Positions 41,465-46,183 of a stretch of 64,000 bases of DNA are shown one piece after another. Positions within the stretch are counted from its first letter, which is position 1, and each line of letters starts with the position of its first letter. Source of the stretch: Candidatus Latescibacterota bacterium (GTDB lineage Bacteria > JAAXHH01); the NCBI GenBank assembly GCA_022821085.1, contig JAJEEG010000002.1:124001-188000 (forward strand), given 5' to 3'. The notes under the pieces are model-generated. The model saw nothing but the letters and a program-made list of their open reading frames with translations, was not told the DNA's origin and searched no databases. Made by a program: the position numbers and the translations under genes.

Positions 41465-41635
41465 GCGCTTCACCGGCCCGGCATAGTCCGGCCGGCCCGG
41501 GGAGAATCATTTGATTTTTTAACGGATTTCCCTATCTTCCTGTATAACCCAGTTGACGCAGACGACGAGACAAGGCGAGTGATGAAGTCTGTACCGAAAC
41601 AACGTGACCCGAACCGGGACAAGGAGATTTTCAAA

Positions 41636-42289
41636 ATGACTCGAATGGTTATGGCTACCGCGGCGCTTTTCGCGCTGTTGCTGCTGATCGGTACCGCAGC
41701 GCCCCTGCATGCCCAGCATGACGATCCGAACATGGAATGGGTGATGGACGGCCCCCTGTATGACCGCCTGGGCGGCGAAGAAATGATCATGGGCGTGATC
41801 GACGACTTCGTTGCCGCGGCCGTGGAAGAGGAACCGTTGAAGGGCCATCTCGAAGGGGTCGACCAGGATGCGTGGAAGGAGATCCTGCTGGCCCAGTTCA
41901 CTTTCGTCTCCGGCGGTGAGATAGAATACGAAGGCAGCAGTTTCAAGGAAAGCCTGGCGGAAATGGGCATCGAGGAAGCCTCCATGGAGACCGTCGCCGA
42001 TCAACTGACGATCGCGCTGGAGCTGAACGAGGCCTGGCCGGAAGACGTGGATGAACTGCTGGTCGCCCTGGAGTTGAAAGAAGCCGAATTGACCGAAGAG
42101 GAGATGGCGGAAGAGGGGATGACCGAAGAAGGGATGACCGAAGAGGAGATGGAAGACGGAAGCGGCCAGGGTAGTGATGCCGGGGACGACGGCGGGGATG
42201 CCGCAGCCAGTGAAGCCGGTGATGCGAGCGGCGACGCCGGAACAAGTGAAACCGGAGATGCCGCGGCAGACGGCGGCACCCGCAAGTAG
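41636..42289 (+). CDS. Exported truncated-globin-like protein without the proximal His, with acidic repeat tail
   Basis: The 217-residue protein starts with a signal peptide (RMVMATAALFALLLLIGTAAPLHAQ). Residues about 41-148 follow the group 1 truncated-haemoglobin outline: LYDRLGGEEMI at the start, GGEIEYEGSSFKESLAEMGI in the middle, and WPEDVDELLVALE at the end. In haem-binding members the stretch is MKxAHxGMGI with the proximal His; here the aligned residue is Leu107. The usual aromatic pair before the middle helices is also missing. So the fold is likely, but haem binding is doubtful. The C-terminal 65 residues are acidic: TEEEM-type five-residue repeats then a Gly/Asp/Ala-rich tail. ATG at 41636 follows AAGGAG; an upstream GTG would place the signal peptide internally. 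Confidence 0.6.
   Translation: MTRMVMATAALFALLLLIGTAAPLHAQHDDPNMEWVMDGPLYDRLGGEEMIMGVIDDFVAAAVEEEPLKGHLEGVDQDAWKEILLAQFTFVSGGEIEYEGSSFKESLAEMGIEEASMETVADQLTIALELNEAWPEDVDELLVALELKEAELTEEEMAEEGMTEEGMTEEEMEDGSGQGSDAGDDGGDAAASEAGDASGDAGTSETGDAAADGGTRK
42092..42151 (+). repeat. 15-nt tandem repeat (4 copies) in the globin-like gene
   Basis: Four in-frame 15-nt units (ACCGAAGAGGAGATG type) encode TEEEM, AEEGM, TEEGM and TEEEM at residues 153-172. Confidence 0.92.
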
Positions 42290-42370
42290 CCTGCCCCGAT
42301 TCCTCTACCGTTTCTCATGACCGGACGATGCACGAAAGATCGTCCGGTCATTTATATATAAGGCGGATGG

Positions 42371-43199: not shown

Positions 43200-43907
43200 A
43201 TGCTGCTTCAACTCGCCCTGGACACGCCGCACGCGGATACGGTACGCCGCCTGTTGGACCGGACCGCCGGCGACGTGGACATCATCGAGCTCGGAACGCC
43301 CCTGCTGATCCGTTACGGGGTCGATATCATCGCCGGGATCAGGCGGGACCATCCCGACAAGAAGATCCTGGCGGATCTCAAGATCGCGGATGCCGGCGCC
43401 GTGGAAGCGGCCCTGGCCTTCGATGCGGGGGCGGACATCGTAACCGTGCTCGGTACGGCCCACCCGGCCACGATTCGGGAAGCGGGCGAGCAGGCGAAGC
43501 GGTCCGGCGGCCGCGTCATGGCCGACCTGATTACCGTCCGCGAAGTGGACGAGGCGGTCTCCCTGGCCCGAAGGCTGGATCGGTCCGGGCTGGATTACAT
43601 CTGCCTGCACACGGCTTTCGACGCCCGGAGACAGGGCGGAACGGGCGGGCAGGGCGGACCGGACGGACCGGACGATCCAGCACGGACCCTGGAAAGCATC
43701 GGCCGGGTCGGCGCGGTGGTCGAACGGGCGGGGCTGGCCGTCGCGGGCGGCCTGGATCCCGCCTTGATCGAGCAGCTGATTCCGCACGGCCCGGACATCG
43801 TGGTCGTCGGCGGTTACATCACTGGAAACCCCGATCCTGACCGCGCGGTCCAAGCGGTCCAAGCGGTCCGGCAGATCATGGAGACCGTGCACCGAACCGA
43901 TGGATAA
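43200..43907 (+). CDS. hxlA: 3-Hexulose-6-phosphate synthase-like protein (OMP decarboxylase superfamily)
   Basis: The 235-residue TIM barrel matches the HPS branch of the OMP decarboxylase superfamily: LQLALDTP, ELGTPLLIRYGVD, ILADLKIADAG, GADIVTVLGTAHPATI and VVVGGYITGNPDP. HPS joins formaldehyde to ribulose 5-phosphate, or runs in reverse to make pentoses. The neighbouring gene codes for the partner isomerase, overlapping by 8 nt, which makes HPS the better call than OMP decarboxylase. Residues 145-159 contain a Gly/Pro/Asp-rich insert made by a 9-nt repeat, after the barrel strand with CLHTAFDAR. A second short repeat at the 3' end gives AVQAVQAVR. Confidence 0.78.
   Translation: MLLQLALDTPHADTVRRLLDRTAGDVDIIELGTPLLIRYGVDIIAGIRRDHPDKKILADLKIADAGAVEAALAFDAGADIVTVLGTAHPATIREAGEQAKRSGGRVMADLITVREVDEAVSLARRLDRSGLDYICLHTAFDARRQGGTGGQGGPDGPDDPARTLESIGRVGAVVERAGLAVAGGLDPALIEQLIPHGPDIVVVGGYITGNPDPDRAVQAVQAVRQIMETVHRTDG
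43632..43676 (+). repeat. 9-nt tandem repeat (5 copies) in hxlA
   Basis: In-frame units CAGGGCGGA/ACGGGCGGG/CAGGGCGGA/CCGGACGGA/CCGGACGAT encode a Gly/Pro/Asp-rich surface loop. Confidence 0.85.
43845..43871 (+). repeat. 9-nt tandem repeat (3 copies) near the hxlA 3' end
   Basis: GCGGTCCAA twice and GCGGTCCGG once, in frame, encode AVQAVQAVR in the last helix. Confidence 0.9.
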
Positions 43908-44490
43908 CGAGAAGACCTCTCCCCAATTCGATGTAATCGCCCGGTCCATCCTGGACGAACTCCGGCGGACGCTGAACCAGATCACATGCGATGAAATCGA
44001 TTCGCTGGTACGGGAAGTCACTGGGGCCCGGCGGGTTTTCGTTGCCGGTGCGGGACGTTCCGGGCTGGTCATGCGCAGCTTCGCCATGCGGCTGGCGCAA
44101 CTCGGACTGACGGTCCACGTGGTGGGCGAAACGACCTCGCCCGCCGTCCGATCGGGCGATCTGCTGCTGATCGGATCGGGATCGGGCGTGACGGACCGCC
44201 TGGTCCACTATGCCGGGAAAGCCGCCGAAGCCGGCGCGCGTGTTGCCGCGGCGACCGCCGATCCTGCTTCTCCGGCCGCCCGGCTGGCGGACGTTGTCGT
44301 CGTCATACCCGCGCCCACGCCGAAATCATCGAAAGAAGCCATCGGACAGGAAAAACAGTCGGGCCAGCCGATGGGCACCCTCTTCGAACAGAGTCTCGGG
44401 GTATTGCTCGATGCCTGCGTCATGCTGCTCATGGCGCGGCTCGATGAAACCGGGCGGAGCATGTTCGCCCGCCACGCCAATCTGGAGTAG
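43900..44490 (+). CDS. hxlB: 6-Phospho-3-hexuloisomerase-like SIS-domain protein
   Basis: The 196-residue SIS protein matches the PHI family that converts hexulose 6-phosphate to fructose 6-phosphate. It has VFVAGAGRSGLVMRSFAMRL (sugar-phosphate loop), VVGETTSPAVRSGDLLLIGSGSG and the C-terminal signature MGTLFEQSLGVLLDACVMLL. The ATG overlaps the hxlA stop by 8 nt, as expected for a coupled HPS-PHI pair. The pair gives formaldehyde fixation or detoxification by the ribulose monophosphate route, or a reverse route to ribulose 5-phosphate. Confidence 0.87.
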   Translation: MDNEKTSPQFDVIARSILDELRRTLNQITCDEIDSLVREVTGARRVFVAGAGRSGLVMRSFAMRLAQLGLTVHVVGETTSPAVRSGDLLLIGSGSGVTDRLVHYAGKAAEAGARVAAATADPASPAARLADVVVVIPAPTPKSSKEAIGQEKQSGQPMGTLFEQSLGVLLDACVMLLMARLDETGRSMFARHANLE

Positions 44491-44563: not shown

Positions 44564-46183
44564 CTATGCCTTCGAAAGGCGCTTGAGCACTTCCCGGTTC
44601 AGGACGGCTTTCAGGAATTCACGCCAGTGGCCGTTGCGGTCTCTATCCGCCGACCGATAGGGATCGGTGCCTATATAAATCGCGCCGCCGTCCTTGTGCG
44701 GCTTCAGGATCACCGCGGCCGAACCATCGCCCCACCGGCCGATAACGCGCACGTCGTCGTCGATCTCCGCCGCACGGACCCGCCAATGGTGCGCGTCGAG
44801 CGCGGCGCCTTCGGGCAGGTCGGGCCAGCCGGCGGTCAGCAGGATCCGGTCCGGATCGTTGAGGACGGACTCCGCCCGTATGCCGAACAGGCGTGTCCGC
44901 GCGTCGCCGTGACGCATCCCCTCGTCCAGGCTGAAGTCGTCGGCCGAACCCACGATCCACCCGCCTGCCCGCATGAAGCGGATCAACCGTTCGACGACCG
45001 CGTCTTTGACCGCCGGACTGGGCGTGCAGCAGAGCCATTCACATCCGGAGAGTTTGTCTCCGTCCGATACCTGGTGATCGGACGCGTAGCCCACCTCCCG
45101 CCCCGTGCTCTCTTCGAGGATGCCATGGGGCGTCCATACGTCCAGCGCGGGCACGCGGCTCGCGAAGGAATCGTATGAAAGCAGGCAGCGGTATTCCGTG
45201 GAAGGCGCATTCGTGCGTTCCATCTCCGTCACCGATCGGCTGAGTGCGGAAATCGCCGTCCATTGCTCCGCGTTCGATTCCGACAGGGACCTGCCCCTTA
45301 TGGGTCTGTCTTCCCACCATGCGGAATCGTCCCAGTTATGCCAGCCGACGGCCGACACCCCCGGCGCGCAGGCCGCGGCCGTCCACTCCCGCAGCTCCCG
45401 CAGCGTGGCCTGGTACCTGCCCCGCATCATCTGCGAGCCGACGACCATCCAGACATCCGCTTCCGCCAGAGACCCGGCTGCGCGCGCCGCCCATCGGATC
45501 AGGCGGCCGGCATCCGTCGCGGACTGCACCCGCGGGGATCCCGGATCGATGATGACGAAGTCCAGTGCGCGGGCCGTCTGCTGAAAGTGGACCAGAGTCT
45601 CGGCCGGCAGGAGGGCGTCGAGATGGAAAGCCATCGTCGTCTTCAGGTTCGATTTCACCTTCTTCACGGCCCGGGCCACCTCCGCCGTGAACTGCGCATA
45701 CTGTTCCATCTGCCAGATCCTGCGTCCGTGCAGGTATCCGTCTTCGGTCATTTCCATCGTCAACAGGCGGCCTTCGACGGACTCCATCACCTGTTGCCAG
45801 CGGTCCTCGGGGTACTCGCTGCCTCCCGTGGGCGCGTCCTCCAGCTGCAGCGCGTACAAACCCTTGCAGGACCCGAATACCTCCGATACGCGCCGCACAT
45901 AGTCGAGGCGCCACGCCCGGGTGTCGGGCAACAGGTACAGGGCCTTCGGGTTGCCGATGTGCAGGATGGACCGGATGCCCGCGTCCGCCGCGGCGCCGAT
46001 CATTTCTTTCACCCGGTCCGTCTGGTCCTCTGAGGCCAGCTGGTTTCTCAGATCGAATCCGTCTCTGAAGACAACGTATTGAAATCCACCGGCCTTGATC
46101 TCGGCGAAGTCGTCGCGCCATTGGTCCGCGCGGTCAAACTCGTTATAGTACGTGAAGGCCTGCATTCTTGATTTGGCGAACAT
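44564..46183 (-). CDS. Unrecognised 539-residue protein, possibly a glycoside-hydrolase-like TIM barrel
   Basis: I cannot name this family. The N-terminal 290 residues read like a TIM barrel with regular strand-helix spacing (QYVVFRDGFDLR, GIRSILHIGNPKALYLL, GLYALQLEDAP, TMAFHLDALLP, DVWMVVGSQMM, GVSAVGWHNWDD), and acidic residues at strand ends such as LQLEDAP could be catalytic. The second half has a region that resembles the flavodoxin-like domain of family 42-type glycosidases (LLSYDSFASR...FMRAGGWIVGSADDFSLDEG) and a small C-terminal beta domain (GDGSAAVILKPHKDGGAIYIGTDPY). There is no signal peptide. It is transcribed away from TamA and converges with hxlB. GGAGA precedes the ATG. Confidence 0.6.
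   Translation of the reverse strand: MFAKSRMQAFTYYNEFDRADQWRDDFAEIKAGGFQYVVFRDGFDLRNQLASEDQTDRVKEMIGAAADAGIRSILHIGNPKALYLLPDTRAWRLDYVRRVSEVFGSCKGLYALQLEDAPTGGSEYPEDRWQQVMESVEGRLLTMEMTEDGYLHGRRIWQMEQYAQFTAEVARAVKKVKSNLKTTMAFHLDALLPAETLVHFQQTARALDFVIIDPGSPRVQSATDAGRLIRWAARAAGSLAEADVWMVVGSQMMRGRYQATLRELREWTAAACAPGVSAVGWHNWDDSAWWEDRPIRGRSLSESNAEQWTAISALSRSVTEMERTNAPSTEYRCLLSYDSFASRVPALDVWTPHGILEESTGREVGYASDHQVSDGDKLSGCEWLCCTPSPAVKDAVVERLIRFMRAGGWIVGSADDFSLDEGMRHGDARTRLFGIRAESVLNDPDRILLTAGWPDLPEGAALDAHHWRVRAAEIDDDVRVIGRWGDGSAAVILKPHKDGGAIYIGTDPYRSADRDRNGHWREFLKAVLNREVLKRLSKA

Follow-up and report, generated by a model that had tools for sequence, protein, structure and literature searches.

An exported, strongly acidic truncated-haemoglobin homologue with leucine at the proximal F8 position

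The gene and the layout of the exported protein

The window analysed here is a 64,000-nucleotide stretch of DNA from a Candidatus Latescibacterota bacterium, and all features below lie on its forward strand unless stated otherwise. An open reading frame of 217 amino acids (41636..42289, ATG start at 41636) was found to encode a globin-like exported protein, with a ribosome-binding site, AAGGAG, read from the sequence at 41621..41626, nine bases upstream of the ATG. Residues 1-26 (41636..41713) have the pattern of a signal peptide with a predicted Sec-type cleavage between A26 and Q27 (MTRMVMATAALFALLLLIGTAAPLHA followed by Q); both were read by eye, and the pattern is repeated in the orthologues. 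An earlier note on this DNA had correctly reported the signal peptide but had called it unusual for the family, which does not hold as signal peptides are common among its exported relatives, themselves group-1 truncated haemoglobins (trHbs).

The mature protein begins with QHDDPNMEW (41714..41740), which is conserved in the orthologues of f1, the family that includes the window's genus, and in those of the order-mates f2 and f3. The shared form of this mature start, QHDDP[DN]ME, occurs once per genome in 14 f1 genomes, and the stretch QHDDP[DN]MEW is strongly conserved across the three families while the linker after it varies. The reading frame and the Pfam and NCBIfam scans give a protein with one globin domain and a low-complexity tail. 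The domain, a group-1 truncated-haemoglobin (2/2 globin) domain, covers residues 41-150 (41756..42085) as judged by phmmer, AlphaFold2 and Foldseek, and is followed by the acidic tail (42086..42286), which holds 23 D/E and 2 K/R in 67 residues and differs in length between species. This tail had been singled out as atypical of the family and it is so, most of the exported relatives being without one.

A strong hairpin (-22.5 kcal/mol, z -5.6) is located 3' of the gene at 42317..42351. It is a possible transcript end, with no classic T run after it, and a scan for promoter and terminator consensus sequences returned nothing, this hairpin included. Further along the window, at 43200-44490, adjacent hxlA-like and hxlB genes were found, that is, the 3-hexulose-6-phosphate synthase and 6-phospho-3-hexuloisomerase of the ribulose-monophosphate pair, the hxlA-like gene scoring just under its curated cut-off. 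They are followed by a 539-residue reading frame on the reverse strand (44564-46183) that has no Pfam match at E 1e-5 and has a conserved counterpart in a relative (L062 5594-7213).

Globin homology and predicted fold

The truncated-globin homology that had been proposed from the sequence was recovered by phmmer, in which the best PDB match was to group-1 trHbs (E 4.6e-8, residues 41-148). The family profile search was divided: the window copy scores 16.3 bits against Pfam Bac_globin, below the cut-off of 21, whereas all five orthologues tested lie above it with 24-61 bits. An AlphaFold2 run on residues 27-152 with six close orthologues gave a pLDDT of 86 and a pTM of 0.77, the five models of the domain spreading from pLDDT 86 to 54, and all 27 Foldseek matches at E<=0.001 were group-1 trHbs, with a TM of about 0.77 and a probability of 1.0. 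Structure prediction and structural search therefore point to a globin fold and not to another.

The low Pfam score of the window copy and the NCBIfam scan, which yielded only a weak CobT match that spans the acidic tail too, are what could be expected of a protein of some other fold with a spurious resemblance to globins. Given the phmmer E value, the Pfam scores of the orthologues and the trHb fold returned by AlphaFold2 and Foldseek, we attach next to no weight to this reading, and on the same three lines of evidence the globin assignment is secure. When the tail was included, AlphaFold2 gave a poor model (pLDDT 58) with low pLDDT in the distal tail, a hint that the tail may be disordered. 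No RsbR or MabR entries were present among the 50 Foldseek matches listed, and a search of viral contigs added no further trHb relatives for a deeper structure alignment.

Loss of the proximal histidine

The F8 histidine is the residue that holds the iron, and it is treated as invariant in globins. In the window protein the F8 column of several alignments is occupied by Leu107 (codon CTG, 41954..41956), which also falls within the predicted F helix (protein residues 103-109, or model residues 77-83, where Leu107 is model residue 81), in agreement with the position given in the earlier note. Leucine was found in 13 of the 13 f1 orthologues that cover the site, representing the genera g1, g2 and g3, while the fourteenth, G012, is truncated where its contig ends and is without the F8 site. 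Histidine, on the other hand, occupies F8 in all 71 aligned outgroup domains, mostly exported trHbs, among them the order-mates f2 (TLRILHTDMGM) and f3 (MKTAHKGMGV). Inspection of this column, a check that had been suggested, thus showed no histidine at the proximal position, and the orthologue alignments contain no other conserved histidine in the globin domain. His71 was considered as a substitute proximal ligand and rejected, as it is replaced by Gln in two of eleven congeners. With leucine in place of the F8 histidine of the group-1 trHbs, the protein is regarded as a trHb homologue and is not classed as a functional haemoglobin.

In a tree built without the F8 column, the 13 f1 rows group together (100/93), with the His-bearing f2 protein adjoining (98/86). 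The deeper placements are unsure, since the tree was computed from just 117 columns and a number of its branches are long, including the one at the base of f1. A single change from His to Leu suffices on the tree, and the loss of the F8 histidine is a one-time event at the base of f1.

The remainder of the haem pocket

Several other changes around the F helix accompany the loss of the histidine, among them GGP to GGE (Pro in 97% of the outgroup), M103F, R/K101 to S, and G109E. The CD1 position is Leu72 (41849..41851) in the window's genus only and Phe in g2, g3, f2 and f3. Of the aromatic pair that had been described as missing, Phe58 at B9 is kept and only B10 is non-aromatic (Val59). Neither is this a peculiarity of the protein, for Val, Ile or Leu stands at B10 in 65 of the 72 domains of the relatives, so that an aliphatic B10 is the rule in exported trHbs and the missing aromatic is uninformative on the loss of haem. 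The distal residues Leu84, Gln87 and Phe88 are conserved or similar in comparison with the His-bearing relatives, and a haem cavity may therefore persist.

This distal pocket bears on the chief rival to a haem-free protein, namely that haem is still bound, by the pocket alone or through another ligand (e.g. Met110, Tyr98, Lys104 or His28 of the conserved mature N-terminus), in which case the protein could be a haem carrier or a different haem protein. Such binding would be in keeping with export from a cell that makes c-type cytochromes and with the observation that Leu at CD1 alone is tolerated by 2/2 globins (PMC1457004). No ligand candidate was gained when the histidine was lost, however, as Met110, Tyr98 and His28 also occur in relatives that have the F8 histidine, position 104 is Leu instead of Lys in g2, and His71 varies among the congeners. 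The fall in Lys and Arg of the domain from 18 to 5 residues would also be unfavourable to the haem propionates. We consider retained haem to be unlikely, at perhaps one chance in five.

The genome encodes cytochrome c assembly genes and a second globin, which scores 67 bits against Bac_globin and is joined to ankyrin repeats, and a shortage of haem therefore does not explain the loss of the F8 histidine. This second globin (L001 1258-2976; contig C1, about 1446410) has a His-bearing motif that looks group-II-like by eye and no fewer than four ankyrin repeats. This combination of domains is unusual, and similar long reading frames occur in several congeners.

Distribution, selection and genomic context

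Orthologues were found in all 16 genomes of the phylum that were examined (the window's and 15 others), and the genomes that carry the f1 orthologues and their relatives are, we take it, sponge-associated MAGs, in keeping with published work on Latescibacterota from sponges. The signal peptide, the grouping with f2 and f3 in the tree and the locus in common with f3 place the window protein within the exported lineage. Within the window's genus the dN/dS of the globin domain is 0.10-0.28, a value limited to this genus as the divergence between genera approaches or exceeds saturation, and the altered globin is thus maintained by purifying selection. These values, together with the predicted group-1 trHb fold, uphold the earlier suggestion of a reused globin fold.

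The long branch at the base of f1 and the loss of several pocket residues are features that a decaying gene might also have, a globin without a role that is drifting. Besides the dN/dS within the genus, the evidence against drift is that none of the uncut orthologues has a broken or shortened reading frame and that the ribosome-binding site, the signal peptide and the N-terminal motif are all conserved, and decay is accordingly judged very improbable.

The globin gene has the order HAD hydrolase, HAD hydrolase, globin, larC in the window and in g3. The f3 gene lies at the same locus, with a superoxide-dismutase-like reading frame between globin and larC, and in g2 the same interval holds a copC-like gene and a membrane protein gene (L057 9701-10992); the f2 globin gene is at another locus, beside c-type cytochrome genes. 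Across the globin loci compared, no constant, functionally linked partner gene was found. Neighbourhoods of exported trHbs in other phyla likewise have no c-type cytochrome in common, a CxxCH reading frame being seen at one of 33 loci.

The gene context bears on the sensor role that had been suggested for the protein. As in RsbR, a haem-free globin could bind a small molecule in its cavity and signal ligand or stress to a separate partner; haem-free globin domains do exist in known signalling proteins (PMC6614362, PMC11617747), and the distal pocket is retained. The protein has neither a fused transducer or output domain nor a membrane anchor, however, and it is encoded beside two HAD hydrolase genes and larC, a neighbourhood into which unrelated genes are inserted in the relatives and which holds no constant partner. 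The suggestion therefore finds no specific backing here, and we rank such a sensor as somewhat less probable still than retained haem.

Acidic surface and tail

The net charge of the globin domain was found to be +3 in f3 and +2 in g3, compared with -22 in g2 and -21 to -24 in the window's genus, where the window domain itself carries -24. The Lys and Arg content of the domain drops in parallel from 17-18 to 5-7 residues. An acidity control was carried out on a 464-kb sample of the same genome, made up of 20 pieces of 20 kb and the window. The window protein was the most acidic of the 323 reading frames sampled, with -0.255 charges per residue against -0.161 for the next, so that its acidity is not merely the style of the organism; the reading frames with a crude signal-peptide call have a median of -0.048 per residue.

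Both the acidic domain and the acidic tail are present in two of the three f1 genera. The genus g3 has lost the histidine without acidification, and the two traits are therefore separable and acidity cannot wholly account for the loss of the histidine. What sets this group apart is the joint occurrence of histidine loss and a highly acidic domain, to which an acidic tail is added in two of its three genera. The acidic tail of g2 contains five histidines in 37 residues and could bind metal.

Proposed role and comparison with known systems

The reading that we favour, by a modest margin over even odds, is that of a derived exported group-1 trHb without its proximal histidine that is kept by selection, works without normal haem chemistry and has a polyanionic binding or buffering role. 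An ancestral exported group-1 trHb would have changed its F8 histidine to leucine once, at the base of f1, and two of the three genera would afterwards have undergone extreme acidification of the domain and acquired the acidic tail. The scaffold, from which we infer haem to be absent, would be exported as an apo-globin to the periplasm or cell surface, where the polyanionic surface and a putatively disordered acidic tail may bind cations or positively charged partners, or buffer them. The former haem cavity would then be collapsed or occupied by another hydrophobic ligand, and the Leu107 protein would carry out no O2/NO chemistry.

In its 2/2 fold (TM about 0.77), its GG motifs and the B9 Phe, the window protein resembles the trHbN of M. 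tuberculosis (1idr/2gkm) and of Shewanella benthica (8uzu), to which it is 26-28% identical, and it differs from them in the Leu at F8 and CD1, the aliphatic B10, the signal peptide, the net charge of -24 and the acidic tail. It shares with exported group-1 trHbs of other phyla (L042, L045, L091) a signal peptide or lipobox-like start, the aliphatic B10 and the GGxxxYxGxxxK spacing, and with the f3 orthologue (L025) the locus and a QHDDPDM N-terminus. Unlike the window protein, the exported group-1 trHbs have the F8 histidine in 71 of 71 domains, their domains are near-neutral, and they are mostly without an acidic tail. The lPHCtX proteins of cable bacteria, likened here by description only, also place a trHb domain in the periplasm, as is predicted for the window protein, but those domains are either fused to multihaem cytochromes or act together with them, and oxygen reduction has been proposed for them (PMC11976967, PMC12093952).

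The N-terminal domains of RsbR and MabR, too, have a globin fold that lacks the canonical haem ligand. In both cases the domain is one part of a larger signalling or regulator protein with several domains, and for RsbR a 3/3 myoglobin fold has been described (PMC4101818). The window protein, by contrast, is an exported 2/2 globin of a single domain, and its order includes orthologues that retain the histidine. The literature searched, which took in few subscription papers, contained no description of a trHb without the F8 histidine. One globin census demanded the F8 histidine (PMC1457004), and surveys of that design would miss proteins of this kind.

The window protein is, with slightly better than an even chance, a natural, selected, haem-free 2/2 globin, an exported polyanion that lost the F8 histidine in one step while a related family still has the histidine form at this locus. 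The forms before and after this step are available at one locus in related bacteria (His in f3 and Leu in f1), with g3 as an intermediate in which the histidine is lost and the domain is not yet acidic, and the window's genus as a further step with the CD1 Phe lost and the acidic tail present. The route from a haem protein to an apparently haem-free one can therefore be put to a direct test with three or four recombinant domains, and it would be a case in which a protein for handling oxygen or NO has apparently been put to a use independent of haem chemistry.

Finally, tandem two-domain exported trHbs were observed in another lineage (L050 and L052, from genomes G142 and G278), where both domains carry the F8 histidine.
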